A model generated the notes under the pieces. That model saw only the letters and a program-made list of their open reading frames with translations, searched no databases and was not told the DNA's origin. Made by a program: the position numbers and the translations under genes. Positions 29,939 through 38,890 of a stretch of DNA of 64,000 bases are shown here, piece after piece; position 1 is the first letter of the stretch; each line of letters opens with the position of its first letter. This DNA comes from Marine Group II euryarchaeote MED-G37 (lineage in GTDB: Archaea > Thermoplasmatota > Poseidoniia > Poseidoniales > Thalassarchaeaceae), in contig NTJQ01000007.1 in assembly GCA_002457555.1 (NCBI GenBank), forward strand, positions 1 through 64,000, written 5' to 3'.

Positions 29939-30553
29939 GTGCGTCAGCGACAACTTGCCATGCTCCTTTCCTCTTTACCTCCACATCCGTGTGGAGATAT
30001 CGAATTGGAACAATATTCTACTTCGGGTGATATTGCAGCCTCGTGGCTAGCACAAATTGCTGCATTCGGCGACCTGTCGACGGATTCATCGATTGCTGAT
30101 TTAGGCGCAGGAAACGGGATTTTAGGGATAGGTGCGGCACTGATGGGTGTGCCTCAGGTAGTTCTGGTAGAGGTGGATGAACAAGCCTGCTCTGTTGCAT
30201 TCCAATCAATTGAGCAGGCGGGAGTATCAGATTCTGTGGAAATATTCCGCAAAAGGGTGGATGATTCACTGGATTTGAGTGGTGCAGATTTGATAATTTC
30301 CAATCCACCTTGGGGGACTCAAAAGGCGAAATCGGACAGGCCTTTTCTTGATGCAATAATTCGCTCAAATGCTATTGGCCATTTGATGCATAGCGCTGAA
30401 GCAACACACATCGAGGCAATCTTCGAGTCGGCTGGATGGGAAGTCGAGAGATATTGGGAAACAGATTTCGTGTTACCCGCTGCCTATTCACACCACTACA
30501 GTCGCCAAGGAAAGACCAGAGCAGGATTCTGGCGTTTGTTACCCCCGGTATAA
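29939..30553 (+). CDS. METTL5-like rRNA/tRNA N6-adenine methyltransferase
   Basis: LEQYSTSGDIAASWL, IADLGAGNGILGIGAALMG, DLIISNPPWGTQ. Confidence 0.87.
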   Translation: MRQRQLAMLLSSLPPHPCGDIELEQYSTSGDIAASWLAQIAAFGDLSTDSSIADLGAGNGILGIGAALMGVPQVVLVEVDEQACSVAFQSIEQAGVSDSVEIFRKRVDDSLDLSGADLIISNPPWGTQKAKSDRPFLDAIIRSNAIGHLMHSAEATHIEAIFESAGWEVERYWETDFVLPAAYSHHYSRQGKTRAGFWRLLPPV

Positions 30554-30624: not shown

Positions 30625-31902
30625 ATGAGTTCTACCACTGGCGACTTTGTCACGCCAGGTAATCAGGTCGATGTACCGGCTGGTGCTAGCCTTGGTTCGG
30701 GCCTCTCGGAGACTGAATCAGGTGCAATAGCCTTAGTTAGTGGGACACTCATTTCCGACGGCGATATACTCTCGGTTGATGCTAACAGTCTAGAGACAAA
30801 TTCACCGCAGATTGGTGATGACGTTATTGCGGAAGTTATCAAACTCATGCCAAAGGTCGCCATGATTCGTATCCTTCACATCGAAAAGGATGGTGGACAT
30901 AGAGACCTTTCTGCGGAGAATTTGTTTGCGGACATTTTCGTGACTGAAATCGTTGATAGATTTCTTCCTTCACCCGGCGATGCTATGAGAAGTAGGGATT
31001 TGATACGTGCTCGAATTACTCAACTTGAACCAAATCTCAAGGCCAGTACTCGGGTTTCCCCCGAATTGGGAGTACTGTGGGCGATTTGCCCTGCATGCGG
31101 AAATGAATTGACTACTTCTGATCACAAGCAGGACTTCAATGTCGATTGTAATCGATGTGATTATTCGGGTTATCGTGCATTATCCAACGGTTTCGGCCAT
31201 GGACATAATCTTGGCGAAGATATACAGGAGTTGAACAGGGCAGGGGAAAGGTGGTCCGCTGAAGCCGAGAGCAAACTCGGCCATGAGGGGGCTAGACCCT
31301 ACCTTTCCCCAATGGCTGACCATCGTCGTGGTATAACTCACCAAGCATCTCCAGCAGCGATGAGAATGCGCTCCGCAATTACAGGAAAAGGCGGCGGTAG
31401 AGATGGAAGACAGCGAGTTCAGCATGAGTGTAAGTGTACATTATGCGGTATCGATACAACCGTACCGTTCCAACCAACACCAGGAAAACCAATCCGTTGT
31501 AAAGACTGTATGGGTAAGGTCAAAGATGGTAAGGCAACCAAGGATGAACTCGCTGCTGAGCGTAAGATATTGACTAAAGCACGCTCCGAAGCCTCCGAAG
31601 TATCCGGGATCAAAATCTTCGTAGCACGATTATCGTTTGATGCTAGCGAGGATGAATTGAGAAATCATTTCTCGACTCATGGAGAGATTACAGAGTGTAG
31701 CATTGCTAAAGATAGAGACACAGGTAAATCTCGCGGATTTGCCTTTGTGAAGTTCGCTAGCCGAAAAGCCGGAGAGAAGGCGATTAAGGAATTGGATGGA
31801 AGTGAAATACACGGCAGAAAAATCAGTGTCCAGGAATCCAATGACGGCGGAGGCCGTCGAGATAGTCGTAGTAAAGGAAACAAACGCCATAATCGCCGAT
31901 GA
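30625..31902 (+). CDS. csl4: Exosome RNA-binding protein Csl4 fused to Zn-binding segment and RRM
   Basis: Csl4 N-domain (FVTPGNQVDV...), S1-like region, CPACGN..CNRCDYSG ribbon, second CKCTLCG..CKDC cluster, RRM with IFVARL and KSRGFAFVKF, basic tail. Confidence 0.88.
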   Translation: MSSTTGDFVTPGNQVDVPAGASLGSGLSETESGAIALVSGTLISDGDILSVDANSLETNSPQIGDDVIAEVIKLMPKVAMIRILHIEKDGGHRDLSAENLFADIFVTEIVDRFLPSPGDAMRSRDLIRARITQLEPNLKASTRVSPELGVLWAICPACGNELTTSDHKQDFNVDCNRCDYSGYRALSNGFGHGHNLGEDIQELNRAGERWSAEAESKLGHEGARPYLSPMADHRRGITHQASPAAMRMRSAITGKGGGRDGRQRVQHECKCTLCGIDTTVPFQPTPGKPIRCKDCMGKVKDGKATKDELAAERKILTKARSEASEVSGIKIFVARLSFDASEDELRNHFSTHGEITECSIAKDRDTGKSRGFAFVKFASRKAGEKAIKELDGSEIHGRKISVQESNDGGGRRDSRSKGNKRHNRR

Positions 31903-31982
31903 TTCCAAATTTGCTGCTCCAATCAGCCATCTAAAGCGAAGTCGTGAAGACTGAACAGTAATCCGAAAGGTTGAGGGGTAGA

Positions 31983-33764
31983 ATGGAAGGTTGGTTAGTC
32001 CTCGACGGATATGAGGATGAACCAGCTGCATTTGGTGTCCCAAATTATCTTGGTTTTCATATCCGATACATCTGTGGCGTTCTAGAATCTAAATCAATCC
32101 CATACACCTACATGACTATCGATGAATGGAGATTATTCCACAAGCAGAAACTTACAAATTCTGCTCAAAGACAAGAACTCCAACGAGAACTTTCCGAACT
32201 AGACGGAGCGGTTATTCTCGCAGGAGCTGTAGTCCCGGGGAAGTATGTTCGGGGCACTCCAATCTCACGCAGAGAATTGGATGATTTTCTAGCAGTTTTT
32301 CCCAGTGAACTACCTGTCCTTGCAGGTGGCTGGGCTATCCGCCATTGGCGCTATGATGGATGGATGCCACTAAGGGCAAATTTATTCTGTGCAGTGCAGG
32401 ATACAGACGCTACATTGGATTACTTTCTCGGAACTGGTGATTGGTCTCACAAACGTAGAACTAGTGAGCAATGGGACAATTGGGCAAAGAAAGGTGCGGC
32501 TGGAAAATGTGTCACAAATCATCCCGATCTTTTTACTGAAGATGGTCGTTCTGGACCATTGACCTACGAAGTGGAATTGTATCAGGGATGCGTGCGTTAC
32601 AAACGAGGCTGTAAGTTTTGTATCGAACCAAAGAAAGGAGTTCCGATATGGAGGGACGAGGCGGATGTTATTGCCGAAATTACAACCGCTTTAGACAATG
32701 GCGTTCGTCATGTTCGTATAGGTGGCGCTACAGACATTTACACCTACAAAGCAGAAGGAGTGGTGGAGCTCGAATATCCCATTCCAGACCCAGAACCAAT
32801 TGCCAAAGTTCTGCACGGCTTAAGGGAAGATGAGAGGCTCCAGATTCTCCATGTTGACAACGCAAACCCCTCTATTGTTGCGGAGAATTTGGAGCCAGCA
32901 ACGGAGATTACAAAATCCCTGATTTCGACTCTTTCGGACGGTGCAGTACTTTCTTTCGGACTCGAATCTGCAGACCCCAAAGTCCACGAAGAAAATTGGC
33001 TAAATTGTAATTCAGAACAACTCAAAATCGCTATTCGACATATCAATCATTTTGGTCGAGAGAGGGGGGAGAGGGGTTTGCCAAGGTTGCTCCCAGGTCT
33101 GAATTTCATCGCAGGGTTGAATGGTGAATCAACCCAATCATACCGAATTAATCGGGACTTACTAGATTCTCTACGTTCAGAAGGACTATGGTTGCGGAGG
33201 ATAAACATCAGACAGGTGGAAGGGCAGGGTTTCCAAGAAATTCCAGAGGATGCCTTCCAGTCCTTCAAACGCAGTGTGAGAGAGGAGGTAGACAAACCAC
33301 TCCTAGAGGAGATGTTTCCAATTGGAACAGAACTCAAAGGAGTTTGGTGGGAGGCACATGATGATCGAATTAGAAGACCGGAACAAGTGTTACAAGAAAG
33401 CTACAGAGACCCCTCAATTTATGGTCGAGCGGGTATAACATTCGGAAGACAAATCGGAGCATATCCGATATTGGTAGGAACTCCATATCAGATTCCCCTC
33501 GAAACCGATTCGAATATCATCGTAACCGGTCATGGAATGCGAAGCATAAGTGGAGTTGAAACGAACTTATCGATTAACTCAGCAAGCCAATCTCAACTTC
33601 AGGCCATACCAGGAATTGGTAGTAAGGCGGCGTGGCGCATAGTTTCCAATCGAGCTAAGGCATATAGGAAATCTTCTGAAAATCCATACTCAAACGTAAA
33701 AACAGTTCTTCAGGATGTAGGCGTTCAGTCCTACGGACTGGCTCTTAGGGTGCTTAAGGCGTGA
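31983..33764 (+). CDS. Archaeal radical SAM protein with C-terminal helix-hairpin-helix
   Basis: ELYQGCVRYKRGCKFCIEPKKG cluster motif; ILHVDNANP; C-terminal NSASQSQLQAIPGIGSKAAWRIVSNRA. Confidence 0.85.
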   Translation: MEGWLVLDGYEDEPAAFGVPNYLGFHIRYICGVLESKSIPYTYMTIDEWRLFHKQKLTNSAQRQELQRELSELDGAVILAGAVVPGKYVRGTPISRRELDDFLAVFPSELPVLAGGWAIRHWRYDGWMPLRANLFCAVQDTDATLDYFLGTGDWSHKRRTSEQWDNWAKKGAAGKCVTNHPDLFTEDGRSGPLTYEVELYQGCVRYKRGCKFCIEPKKGVPIWRDEADVIAEITTALDNGVRHVRIGGATDIYTYKAEGVVELEYPIPDPEPIAKVLHGLREDERLQILHVDNANPSIVAENLEPATEITKSLISTLSDGAVLSFGLESADPKVHEENWLNCNSEQLKIAIRHINHFGRERGERGLPRLLPGLNFIAGLNGESTQSYRINRDLLDSLRSEGLWLRRINIRQVEGQGFQEIPEDAFQSFKRSVREEVDKPLLEEMFPIGTELKGVWWEAHDDRIRRPEQVLQESYRDPSIYGRAGITFGRQIGAYPILVGTPYQIPLETDSNIIVTGHGMRSISGVETNLSINSASQSQLQAIPGIGSKAAWRIVSNRAKAYRKSSENPYSNVKTVLQDVGVQSYGLALRVLKA

Positions 33765-33820
33765 TGCAACTCGTTCAGGCAGAGGGAATAGTGATAATCT
33801 CAGCAAGGACGCCAAGAATC

Positions 33821-36800
33821 ATGTTGAACGAGGAAATGAAGAGAATCGTTGCTTTAGGAATCTGTGTTTTATTCCTCGGAGTTCCAATGCTAGGGTACTT
33901 ATCCGGTGATGACGAATCGCAGTTTATTCTAGGGGAAGAAAATGAAATTTCCTTTACACACTCTAGTGGCCCAACATTGAACATTCAAGGTAGCGAAGCT
34001 GGAACGATATTCTCCCATTCTGTTTTGGATATTGGTGTAGATGGCCCAATGGTTGTACTTGCTAATGGTACAACTGTTAAATGGTCTCAGGGTGATCCGA
34101 TTTATTCTGAAGATTCACTTATTTCTACTTCAGGAAGATGTTCTATTTTATCCAATTACTCAATGTATTGTTCTGGTTCAAACAACTACGGTCAACTCGG
34201 ACTTGGAAACTCGGTTTCAACTTCAGGCTATGTCACTCTAAGCCATGAGCCAGTGGTAATCGATGAAGGTAAAGATCACACCTGTGCAATTCTAATAGAC
34301 GCAAGCCTTTGGTGCTGGGGGCGCAATCACTTTGGTCAGGTTGGCGACAATTCCACCGAAAATCGAGTTTCTCCTGTAAATGTCGACTTAGGAAACAGCG
34401 TTTACGCCGTAGCTGTCTCAGCCGGTGAGCATCACACATGTGCCATAACTCACCTTGGTGATGTCATGTGCTGGGGCTACAACATAAGGGGGCAACTTGG
34501 AGACGGCACAACCAACGATTCGTTCGTTCCTGTCTCCGTTACACACTCTACCGGTTTACGGGCAGTATCATTAGTTACTTCTGGGCTTTCATCTTGCGTA
34601 ATTTTTGAGAATGGCTCTGTTGGTTGTTGGGGTAACAAGTATACAGTTTTCTCCGACAATGGTGCCGTTACAGGAAGCGTCCATCTCATCGATTTAGGTA
34701 CTAATATTGGCGCCATCATGCTCGATGGTATCGGCTCCCATACATGTGCGGTAACAGACAATGGTTCGATGCAATGTTGGGGGGTCAATACTCATGGTCA
34801 GTTAGGCGATGGAACCTGTTCTTCGACCATTAATTCCGACTGTTCTGCGGAGAATATTTTCCCCGGTGAAGGTGACTCAACTGTTCATGTGAACCTAACT
34901 TCGGGGCTTACGGTAATCGCAGCAGCGACGGGTTCTGATTCTACTTGTGCTCTATTATCCGATGACTCATTGTACTGTTGGGGTTCTCAGTCTGGTGAGT
35001 TTGATAACACGACTGAATCTCTACTCAATCCTTACCAATTAATATTTGCAGATGGTACCCACATCGCTTATACTGAGCAAGACTTTGATGGAGATGGTAT
35101 CCGTAACTTCTTCGATACGCATCAGACTGGCGATAACGATGGTGATGGGGCTATTGATTCTGATGATGATTATCCGAACAACCCGGCAAGATGGGCAGAT
35201 TGTGATGATGGTCAATATGGCCGATTGACCTGTATTGATGCGTCCGTGGGTCATTCAGCATCGGACAGCACTCTAGTCCAGACCGAGTGCCAACCAGGAA
35301 CATTCCAACCATTCACGGGCCAAACGTCCTGCCTTGACGCGTCCGCCGGTAATTATGTCGATTCCTCGGCATCACAGTCACAAACACCATGTGCGACCGG
35401 TTATTCAAATGCCCAGATCGGGCAATCATCTTGCTCACCGGCTCCTGCGGGTTCCTATGTTAATCCGGCAGGCGGTGATGCAGGTACAAGCAATACAACA
35501 GCCGTGGAGTTATCGGCTATGAGTGCGAATTATTCCGCATCGATTTCAGGAGGTTCAGATAGCATAGACGTATTTTCTCTCGATTTGTCTAGATTAACAT
35601 GGTTCACAGCAAACCTAACTTCCCCTGCGGGGCAGAATTATGATATTGAATTGTTAAATTCTACCTTCCAAGTAATCGATTCATCTTCCACCAATGGCTC
35701 CGATGAAGTATCTACAGCCTCTTCAAATAATTCAAGTGGGGTGTATTACATCAGAATTAGCTATTCATCTGGATTCAATAACTCAGACGACTATAATCTA
35801 GTAATCAACTTGAGATCAACTAATTCGGCTGCAACACAAGTAGGCTCTACGTCGATAAATATCGACGCGGAACATGGTATTGAAACCACATCGTGTTCTT
35901 CAGGAACCTGGCAAGATCAGACAGGTTCAACTTTCTGTAATCAGGCCTCAGCAGGTCACTATGTTTACGGAACAGGTGCGACATCTCAAACAGCCTGTTC
36001 TCCAGGATACTATCAACCGAATTCGGGACAAACAGGCTGTATTATTGCATCCTCAGGTTACTTCGTCGCCTATCCGGCATCAACTTCTCAGACAGCGGCA
36101 GGGCCTGGCCATTATGTCAATGGAACAGGGGCGACAGCTCAGACTCCTTGTACGGTTGGGGCCTATCAACCATCTTCAGCTCAAACTACTTGTTTTGCGG
36201 CAAGTCCAGGGTATTATGTTCCTGTGACTGGTCAAGCCAATCAGACGATTTGTAATGGAGGAACCTATCAACCAAACTCAGGCCAAAGGGAATGCCTTAA
36301 CGCAGACCCAGGTCATTATGTTCCAAATCAAGGAGCAACCAATCAAACTCAATGTTCTCTTGGTACCTATCAACCGATGTCTGGTCAATGGTTTTGCCAG
36401 AATGCAGAACCCGGTCATTATGTCGATGATGTAGGTGCAATTTCTCAAACTCCCTGCTCAGTGGGTGAATATCAAACAGCGAGTGGCCAAACTAGTTGCC
36501 TAACAACATCCGCTGGATATTATACAAATTCAACCGGTTCAATCAATCAACAACCCTGTCTTCCCGGAAACTTTCAACCATTATCTGGTCAAGCAGAGTG
36601 TTTCCAAGCCGAACCTGGAAACTACGTAGACACGCTTGCCGCAACCGCCCAAATCCCTTGCCCCGCAGGTTCATACAATCCAATCTATCAGGCAGATGAA
36701 GCAACTGATTGTATGCTTGCAGACACAGGTCATTTCGTGGCCCTACAAGGTTCGGTCGCTCAGGATGAATGTAGCCCAGGTAGTTATTCCTCTACTCAAG

Positions 36801-38890
36801 GACAAATTGCCTGCGACGCTGCGTCTCCCGGATATTATGTATCAAATTCAGCCGCCGATTCACAATTGCCCTGTTCATTTGGAACTTGGCAGGGTACTCA
36901 AGGTTCGACTGGCTGTGATACAGCAGATCCCGGACACTATGTTGATTCAGCGGCGGCTTCAATACAGACAGCCTGCAATTCAGGCACCTACAATCCAAAC
37001 TCCGGTTCAGTAAATTCTGCAGATTGTATTACAGCCGATGCTGGAAGTTACGTTGCTAATTCTGGCTCGCCCGAACAACTTCTTTGCCCAGCAGGAACCT
37101 ATCAACCAGCACCAGGCCAATCCCGTTGTATCGATGCGGACTTTGGCTATCATGTTCCAAGCGAAGGAGCTACTGGCCAAATTGGCTGTTCCATGGGTTC
37201 CTTCCAGAATGATCGAGCGGGAACTGTTTGTAATCCTGCGGACGCTGGTTACTATGTCGACTCTCACTTCGCCTCTTCTCAAACCGCCTGCCTAGCCGGA
37301 ACTTACAACCCATCTAGTGGTTCTACTTCCTCAAATGATTGCATGGATGCTAATCCTGGATATTTCGCAGAAAACATTGGGTCTGCCTCACAGGAAGCCT
37401 GCGATTACGGCTACTACCAACCAAATGCTGGCTGGTCTAGCTGCTTGATGGCAGACTCTGGCCATTATGTGAATGAGCAAGCCGCCACTGCCCAAATTAC
37501 CTGTGAAGCAGGAACATTCAACCCTAACTTCGGGTCAACCACCGAGTTTGCTTGTTTAGAGGCGGAACCTGGAAACTACGTTCCAGACCCCGCCTCTCCT
37601 GCACAAATACCCTGCGAAGAGGGTAGTTACCAAAATCAACGACAACAAACTGAATGCAAAACTGCTAGTTTGGGTTACTTTGTCAATACAACCGGAGCAG
37701 TATCTCAGGAGGCAGCGCCTCTAGATTACTACATAGACATCGAAGGTGCTACTGAGGCTTTGCCATGTCCTGAAGGTCGAATTACCATGGTCCTAGGCTC
37801 TGACGATGTAGAGGACTGTCGTCAAGATTACGACGGAGATAGAACTCCTGATTTCCTTGATGATGACGATGATAATGACGGAATAATTGATCACATGGAC
37901 CAATGTGACTACGGTTTACTGAACTGGATTAGTACTAAATCTAACGATTGGGATCAAGACGGTTGCGAGGATAATTCAGAGGATACTGATGACGATAATG
38001 ACGGCTTCCCAGACACTACTGATCATCTTCCCTTAGACCCAACAGAATGGTTGGATACTGATGGTGACGGAATAGGAGATAACTCTGATACCGATGATGA
38101 CGGCGATGGGATTCCTGATAATGAAGAGCTTGAACTTGGATTAGACCCCCTTGTCGCTGATTATGATAATGATGGTTACAATGACAGCGTCGATGCCTTC
38201 CCCAAAGATCCAACAGAGTGGGAAGATACAGACGGCGATGGAATAGGAGACAATTCCGATAAATTCCCTACAGTGAAGTTTTACCAAACCTATGGACAAG
38301 CTGCAATTCACTTGATTATCGGTTTGATTATTCTTGGAGTCATTGGATTTAGCGTGCGAATGGGTATCGGAGGTCGTCCGCAGAAAGCGGAGGCTGATGA
38401 TAGCACCCATGAAATTCGCGAAATTGCCGGAGTAGAAGTTAGAGTTTCTGCAGAGGACAGAATGTTCGATGAAAACCCTCAACCCCTAGTCAAATCTGAG
38501 CCTGAACCTCAACCAGATGAAACTCCATCAACTACAATGTTCGACTTACAAGCTGCAGAACAGACAGTTACAGAATCAATGGATGAACCGATTACTGAAC
38601 AAGTTGGAATGGATTTGACTCATGAGGCTGAGGTGCAGGAAGCGGCACTTACGGAATCCCAAGACACCTCACAGGCTAACGAAGATGTGGATGAATTAGA
38701 CCTTGACAGCCTTCTAGCAACGGCACCGCCGCCTGTTCCGAAAATCGAAGCGCCTTCCGATGCCCAAGTCAACGAACATGGCCAGAAAGTTTGGCGCGAT
38801 GACAAGGGGGATGTTTGGGTTCAGAACCCAGATGGAAGCCTACTCAAGCACAACGTCTTGACGGGTGCTTGGGAACCTTACGAACAGTGA
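33821..38890 (+). CDS. Giant surface protein: RCC1-like repeats, two-Cys repeats, PPC-like insert, Asp-rich Ca-binding repeats, TM, cytosolic tail
   Basis: CWGRNHFGQVGDNST / CWGYNIRGQLGDGTTND; repeated CxxGxYxPxxGQxxCxxAxPGxYV; DTDGDGIGDNSDTDDDGDG; TM near AAIHLIIGLIILGVIGFSV. Confidence 0.9.
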   Translation: MLNEEMKRIVALGICVLFLGVPMLGYLSGDDESQFILGEENEISFTHSSGPTLNIQGSEAGTIFSHSVLDIGVDGPMVVLANGTTVKWSQGDPIYSEDSLISTSGRCSILSNYSMYCSGSNNYGQLGLGNSVSTSGYVTLSHEPVVIDEGKDHTCAILIDASLWCWGRNHFGQVGDNSTENRVSPVNVDLGNSVYAVAVSAGEHHTCAITHLGDVMCWGYNIRGQLGDGTTNDSFVPVSVTHSTGLRAVSLVTSGLSSCVIFENGSVGCWGNKYTVFSDNGAVTGSVHLIDLGTNIGAIMLDGIGSHTCAVTDNGSMQCWGVNTHGQLGDGTCSSTINSDCSAENIFPGEGDSTVHVNLTSGLTVIAAATGSDSTCALLSDDSLYCWGSQSGEFDNTTESLLNPYQLIFADGTHIAYTEQDFDGDGIRNFFDTHQTGDNDGDGAIDSDDDYPNNPARWADCDDGQYGRLTCIDASVGHSASDSTLVQTECQPGTFQPFTGQTSCLDASAGNYVDSSASQSQTPCATGYSNAQIGQSSCSPAPAGSYVNPAGGDAGTSNTTAVELSAMSANYSASISGGSDSIDVFSLDLSRLTWFTANLTSPAGQNYDIELLNSTFQVIDSSSTNGSDEVSTASSNNSSGVYYIRISYSSGFNNSDDYNLVINLRSTNSAATQVGSTSINIDAEHGIETTSCSSGTWQDQTGSTFCNQASAGHYVYGTGATSQTACSPGYYQPNSGQTGCIIASSGYFVAYPASTSQTAAGPGHYVNGTGATAQTPCTVGAYQPSSAQTTCFAASPGYYVPVTGQANQTICNGGTYQPNSGQRECLNADPGHYVPNQGATNQTQCSLGTYQPMSGQWFCQNAEPGHYVDDVGAISQTPCSVGEYQTASGQTSCLTTSAGYYTNSTGSINQQPCLPGNFQPLSGQAECFQAEPGNYVDTLAATAQIPCPAGSYNPIYQADEATDCMLADTGHFVALQGSVAQDECSPGSYSSTQGQIACDAASPGYYVSNSAADSQLPCSFGTWQGTQGSTGCDTADPGHYVDSAAASIQTACNSGTYNPNSGSVNSADCITADAGSYVANSGSPEQLLCPAGTYQPAPGQSRCIDADFGYHVPSEGATGQIGCSMGSFQNDRAGTVCNPADAGYYVDSHFASSQTACLAGTYNPSSGSTSSNDCMDANPGYFAENIGSASQEACDYGYYQPNAGWSSCLMADSGHYVNEQAATAQITCEAGTFNPNFGSTTEFACLEAEPGNYVPDPASPAQIPCEEGSYQNQRQQTECKTASLGYFVNTTGAVSQEAAPLDYYIDIEGATEALPCPEGRITMVLGSDDVEDCRQDYDGDRTPDFLDDDDDNDGIIDHMDQCDYGLLNWISTKSNDWDQDGCEDNSEDTDDDNDGFPDTTDHLPLDPTEWLDTDGDGIGDNSDTDDDGDGIPDNEELELGLDPLVADYDNDGYNDSVDAFPKDPTEWEDTDGDGIGDNSDKFPTVKFYQTYGQAAIHLIIGLIILGVIGFSVRMGIGGRPQKAEADDSTHEIREIAGVEVRVSAEDRMFDENPQPLVKSEPEPQPDETPSTTMFDLQAAEQTVTESMDEPITEQVGMDLTHEAEVQEAALTESQDTSQANEDVDELDLDSLLATAPPPVPKIEAPSDAQVNEHGQKVWRDDKGDVWVQNPDGSLLKHNVLTGAWEPYEQ
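35288..37714 (+). repeat. About 19-20 degenerate tandem protein repeats of 34-37 aa with two Cys each, interrupted by PPC-like insert at about 35500-35850
   Basis: Manual alignment of repeat units, e.g. CSPGYYQPNSGQTGCIIASSGYFVAYPASTSQTA / CNGGTYQPNSGQRECLNADPGHYVPNQGATNQTQ. Confidence 0.85.

Follow-up and report, generated by a model that had tools for sequence, protein, structure and literature searches.

Domain architecture of the locus

The window, a 64,000-nucleotide stretch of DNA from a Thalassarchaeaceae genome, carries on its forward strand one unbroken 425-codon frame at positions 30625-31902, with an ATG at 30625, a TGA at 31900-31902 and zero internal stops. The initial annotation read it as a Csl4 exosome subunit continuing without a stop into a second cysteine cluster and an RRM, and the frame indeed runs through Csl4, finger and RRM uninterrupted. 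The features of the locus are as follows.

29939..30553 (+): upstream small methyltransferase gene, a conserved neighbour (PF05175; locus survey)
30625..31902, stop included (+): Csl4-RRM fusion gene, 425 aa (frame and profile searches)
30625..30810 (+): Csl4 N-terminal domain, residues 1-62, expected anchor on the Rrp41/Rrp42 ring (NF034126 match 7-190; 2ba1_A alignment 8-183; anchoring role from PMC4227792)
30811..31074 (+): S1 domain, residues 63-150, boundaries approximate (strands in the predicted model; Foldseek match to Csl4 chains)
31075..31194 (+): Csl4 zinc ribbon, residues 151-190, with C155, C158, C175 and C178 invariant (alignments)
31222..31344 (+): conserved linker, LNRxGERW...GARPYLSPxADHRRG, of which the two-RRM family has a weaker form (mean pairwise identity 0.72 over 27 sequences; alignments)
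31345..31413 (+): Gly/Arg-rich flexible spacer of low pLDDT (alignment and model)
31414..31521 (+): CxxC-x17-CxxC zinc finger, PF23477 / TIGR04272, residues 264-299, with C271, C274, C292 and C295 (profiles, alignment)
31522..31608 (+): helical connector from finger to RRM (model helices H293-300 and H306-327)
31609..31839 (+): RRM, residues 329-405, with RNP2 at 31615-31632 and RNP1 at 31732-31755 (PF00076, model, Foldseek, alignment)
31840..31899 (+): basic tail, net +6 over 20 residues (charge count)
31971..33764 (+): downstream radical-SAM / helix-hairpin-helix gene, a neighbour conserved in the order (profiles; locus survey)

Further along the window, positions 33761-38890 (+) encode a 1709-aa protein in which RCC1 repeats are joined to many ephrin-receptor-like cysteine repeats; by eye, it also has repeats resembling Ca-binding ones and a membrane segment at its C-terminus.

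The N-terminal part is an archaeal Csl4

Residues 1-190 are an archaeal Csl4 with an N-terminal domain, an S1 domain and a four-cysteine zinc ribbon, in agreement with the standard Csl4 and zinc ribbon first proposed for this part. The NCBIfam archaeal Csl4 model NF034126 aligns residues 7-190 to model positions 1-178 of 180 (E 1.1e-21). With the whole model aligned, the score is 77.4 bits here and 89.8 bits for one member of the second Poseidoniales family, against a curated equivalog cut-off of 90 that is a scoring threshold for naming rather than a biological defining feature. The best PDB match by sequence is A. fulgidus Csl4 (2ba1_A, E 3e-8), which is also the best Foldseek match of the predicted model (E 7e-13), followed by eukaryotic Csl4 chains. 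The four ribbon cysteines are invariant in the order and phylum samples, and the gene is the sole Csl4 of its genome, where the only further match to the Csl4 profile is Rrp4.

The protein thus resembles A. fulgidus AF_0206 (PDB 2ba1) and S. solfataricus Csl4 in its N-terminal domain, S1 domain and four-cysteine ribbon, as well as in the presence of the other exosome subunits. Ordinary archaeal Csl4, however, ends near 180-200 aa, whereas the Poseidoniales protein is about 225 residues longer and continues into a linker followed by a CxxC finger and one RRM or, in the other family, by two RRMs. It is a lineage-specific architecture of a known subunit.

The C-terminal extension contains a zinc finger and a canonical RRM

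Profile searches place a PF00076 domain at residues 331-400 (73.7 bits vs a gathering cut-off of 20.7, E 1e-20), including the RNP2-like IFVARL (residues 331-336) and the RNP1-like RGFAFVKF (residues 370-377) on which the RRM had been proposed. A beta-alpha-beta-beta-alpha-beta fold is predicted for this region with a pLDDT of ~84-88 (AlphaFold2, 27 aligned sequences). In Foldseek the predicted domain superposes on the chloroplast-ribosome protein cS22 (5mmj_v) with an rmsd of 1.2 A over 79 columns, and RRMs of known structure that bind RNA, hnRNP/ELAV types among them, also match it at roughly 1-2 A; the RRM-like part therefore has the structural match that the initial annotation had looked to. 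The RNP aromatics F332, F372 and F374 are invariant in 27/27 aligned sequences from Thalassarchaeaceae. Position 5 of RNP2 varies among R, S and G in the same alignment and the net charge of the RRM is only +1, so that its affinity for RNA may be modest.

The second cysteine cluster is a zinc finger with both CxxC pairs present, scoring above the cut-offs of PF23477 (37.8 bits vs 27) and TIGR04272 (40.2 vs 36). Finger and RRM_1 are both matched in all 27 aligned Thalassarchaeaceae proteins, far above chance. The full-length AlphaFold2 model has a pTM of 0.40, with low confidence in the linker and a pLDDT below 50 over residues ~218-262. An R/G/K-rich tail had been noted as well; a basic tail is present, but it is only ~20 residues long in this genome and is poorly conserved.

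The fusion is an order-wide trait

A survey of Csl4 across Poseidoniales, a step the initial annotation had suggested, matched the fusion in 190 of 195 genomes, in both families of the order and in many independent assemblies. In Thalassarchaeaceae, the family from which the window derives (f1), Csl4 is followed by the finger and one RRM, and in almost every genome the match spans the full length, with identities of 47-94%. The other family (f2) has frames of about 400-600 codons comprising Csl4 and two tandem RRMs, both predicted with an RRM fold; PF00076 is matched in 12/12 f2 proteins scanned and the PF23477/TIGR04272 finger in none of them. The fusion is therefore a trait of the whole order, with one or two RRMs depending on the family and a family-specific finger; the RRM is a domain type characteristic of eukaryotes. 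The C-termini of the two-RRM proteins (e.g. L041:2149-3498) share a conserved short motif, approximately K-S-S-R-E-x-x-A-x-x-E-E.

RRMs were searched in a sample of 296 Thermoplasmatota genomes (82 of the order, 6 of the sister family f3 and 208 others). An RRM was found in 81 of the 82 genomes of the order, nearly always within the long Csl4 frame and usually as the sole RRMs of the genome, while in the six sister-family genomes the RRM is a small gene of its own; Csl4 in that family is unfused. Among the 208 genomes from outside the class, 19 contain an RRM, all of them small separate ORFs among the matches listed, and Csl4 frames listed from outside the order measure about 185-294 aa. No RRM was matched in the archaeal control genomes, the only archaea surveyed beyond Thermoplasmatota. 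The rarity of archaeal RRMs on which the initial annotation had drawn is thus borne out among the genomes tested.

Loss of a stop codon in this assembly only is ruled out by the order-wide survey. An assembly or sequencing artefact that joined two genes is in general so improbable as to be negligible: the same architecture recurs in the two families across many assemblies made independently, in one genome that is a single contig (G002) and in named isolates of independent origin, and split frames were seen only in G091 and G144, at apparent frameshifts. Recoding of an in-frame TAG, considered for the matches of one genus, was rejected, since at locus L018 the TAG is a normal terminal stop through which the aligner had read into Arg-rich sequence. 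A Thalassarchaeum Csl4-RRM gene with 89% identity also lies on a contig (CALDGA010000265.1, locus L144) of a MAG entitled "uncultured Flavobacteriales bacterium"; the contig was probably mis-binned in this public genome. No prior description of a Csl4-RRM fusion was found in the non-subscription literature searched; a survey of S1 proteins from 2024 refers to Csl4, with no RRM.

Sequence constraint and gene neighbourhood

Among 27 sequences, mean pairwise identity is 0.72 for the linker and for the finger, 0.67 for the S1 domain and for the zinc ribbon and 0.60 for the RRM, and it is low in the Gly spacer (0.37) and the tail (0.44). In all domains, nonsynonymous divergence (dN) is small compared with synonymous change. 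For the RRM, dN ranges from 0.02 to 0.22 with synonymous sites near saturation in most pairs; the ratio is 0.20-0.25 in the two closest pairs, which have too few synonymous changes for it to be firm, and 0.03 in the next pair. By these measures, the RRM is constrained like the Csl4 part.

The surroundings of the gene are also conserved. The methyltransferase gene lies upstream of Csl4 in 80/86 f1 loci and 13/14 f2 loci, and the fusion is flanked by both the methyltransferase and the radical-SAM gene in 68/86 f1 loci and 13/14 f2 loci, with contig ends explaining part of the rest.

Evolutionary origin of the module

In a tree built from 79 RRM columns, the f1 RRMs and the first RRM of f2 group apart from stand-alone RRMs (support 95/87), and the second f2 RRM is unplaced. 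Dating of the RRM origin by this tree was abandoned, as the tree is weakly resolved and supports only that separation. The stand-alone proteins of the Rbp type (NCBIfam NF058537), which also occur in a few Thermoplasmatota, likewise have a single canonical RRM with RNP1 and RNP2 and a short basic tail, but they are separate ORFs of 81-158 aa, whereas the Poseidoniales RRM is covalently joined to the exosome cap. A fusion precursor with adjacent RRM and Csl4 genes was not seen in the sister family, where the two lie on different contigs. Read most simply, the distribution places the origin of the fusion on the Poseidoniales stem. Because the finger is found in 27/27 f1 proteins and is unmatched in the 12 f2 proteins, either f1 acquired it or f2 lost it.

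The exosome core is retained and DnaG is diverged

The genome that contains the window also encodes the usual proteasome-SBDS-Rrp4-Rrp41-Rrp42 cluster (contig C14), in which SBDS, the proteasome and Rrp4 were named by reading translations, and a DnaG (G000:C22). Outside the cluster, a third RNase PH-domain gene (L086:1431-2306 (-), G000:C25) contains both RNase PH domains and resembles bacterial RNase PH; similar extra copies occur in other Poseidoniales.

Loss of DnaG and its replacement by the RRM is ruled out, as DnaG is present in all 13 f1 genomes and all f2 genomes sampled. It scores 333-363 bits in the order, compared with 490 in the sister family and roughly 430-545 in most other Thermoplasmatota. 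The C-terminal domain reaches 17-23 bits or is undetected in the order, while elsewhere in the phylum it gives 46-61 bits or full-length matches. Rrp41, used as a control in the same genomes, scores 305-329 bits vs roughly 320-400 elsewhere, a drop much smaller than that of DnaG. In earlier work, the DnaG C-terminal domain was found to be important for exosome binding, for which Csl4 is needed (PMC4227792). The divergence of this domain in the same order as the fusion is a correlation only, hinting at a rewiring of the exosome.

A putative RNA-capturing adaptor on the exosome cap

The archaeal exosome is a simple model of the eukaryotic exosome, and substrate choice is poorly understood. We consider it probable that the fusion is a lineage-specific, RNA-capturing adaptor acting in cis on the exosome cap, with which Poseidoniales probably have a built-in handle for the choice of RNAs to destroy. 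From sequence and predicted structure, we infer that the fusion protein assembles into the exosome, binds RNA and affects substrate choice. In the proposed scheme, Csl4 would have gained a C-terminal RRM module in or before the Poseidoniales ancestor, with residues 1-190 docking onto the Rrp41/Rrp42 ring in the manner of Csl4 from other archaea. The linker and the flexible Gly/Arg spacer would allow the finger and the RRM (in f2, the pair of RRMs) to extend above the entrance of the pore, where the RRM, binding single-stranded stretches through its RNP aromatics, would raise the local substrate concentration and may bias which 3' ends enter for phosphorolytic decay or tailing.

This reading is judged the likeliest because the fusion would be the natural counterpart of a Sulfolobus Csl4 chimera that gained poly(A) binding. 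Sulfolobus Csl4 itself has only weak affinity for poly(A); it docks via its N-terminal domain, and DnaG binding requires it. When the DnaG N-terminal domain was fused to its C-terminus, the chimera bound poly(A) strongly, and degradation was faster than with the Csl4 exosome, also when the latter was supplemented with DnaG (PMC4227792). The engineered S. solfataricus Csl4-NT protein and the Poseidoniales fusion are alike in placing an RNA-binding domain on the Csl4 C-terminus of an archaeal exosome, but the former is man-made and carries the DnaG domain, while the latter is natural and carries an RRM. A more speculative extension, which we regard as unlikely, is that the RRM-bearing Csl4 took over or reshaped the RNA recruitment normally shared with DnaG, that the DnaG C-terminal domain diverged or was released in consequence, and that RNA decay and tailing in this order follow a different substrate code.

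RRMs can also bind proteins rather than RNA. The main competing explanation, which we hold to be unlikely, is that the domain chiefly brings a partner protein or particle (a helicase, DnaG, the ribosome) to the exosome; in human NEXT, the RRM of RBM7 also binds ZCCHC8, through a proline-rich peptide of the latter (PMC5322736). The unusual divergence of the exosome-binding domain of DnaG in exactly Poseidoniales would fit such recruitment, but the RNA-stacking aromatics of RNP1 and RNP2 are kept in every aligned sequence, and a pure protein binder would not need them.

Less probable again is a union for stoichiometry only, in which the RRM would be a tethered cold-shock or RNA-chaperone protein of the Rbp-like kind. 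Such an origin is suggested by the sister family of the class, with its unfused Csl4 and separate Rbp-like RRM gene, and by the top match of the RRM, NCBIfam Rbp_regulator (82 bits, under its cut-off of 100); against it, the f1 and first f2 RRMs are set apart from stand-alone RRMs in the tree, and the linker and finger equal S1 in conservation, a sign that where the module sits on the exosome is important. Neutral accretion of domains with no role, to which the differing accessory domains of the two families (finger and one RRM vs two RRMs) could point, is very improbable, being largely refuted by retention in about 190 species-level genomes under high amino-acid constraint.

The cis adaptor reading also invites comparison with eukaryotic targeting complexes, in which an RNA-binding protein, RBM7 of NEXT (itself an RRM protein) or PABPN1 of PAXT, is tied with a zinc-finger protein to exosome targeting (PMC5322736). 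Those proteins act in trans via MTR4 and ZCCHC8/ZFC3H1 and are not homologous as a system to the Poseidoniales fusion, and the likeness is best taken as functional rather than by descent. Where eukaryotes supply RBM7 and PABPN1 in trans, an abundant marine archaeal order has an RRM within the exosome cap itself. The fusion thereby offers a small, naturally occurring system whose adaptor function can be probed by deletion or mutation of a single domain, and it marks the Poseidoniales stem as a defined step in evolution where the targeting of the exosome may have shifted.

PNPase-like proteins elsewhere in the phylum

Five other Thermoplasmatota genomes of 89-95% completeness (G213, G221, G227, G232 and G236; families f11 and f26) gave no match to Csl4 or to a true Rrp41. 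The same genomes encode a bacterial-type PNPase-like protein of ~750-800 aa with two RNase PH domains and, by eye, KH and S1 domains (e.g. L219:169-2433 (-) and L221:577-2973 (+)), suggesting that PNPase may have replaced the exosome in them, with binning contamination a possible source. In their relatives G203, G240 and G246, an exosome and a PNPase-like protein are both present.
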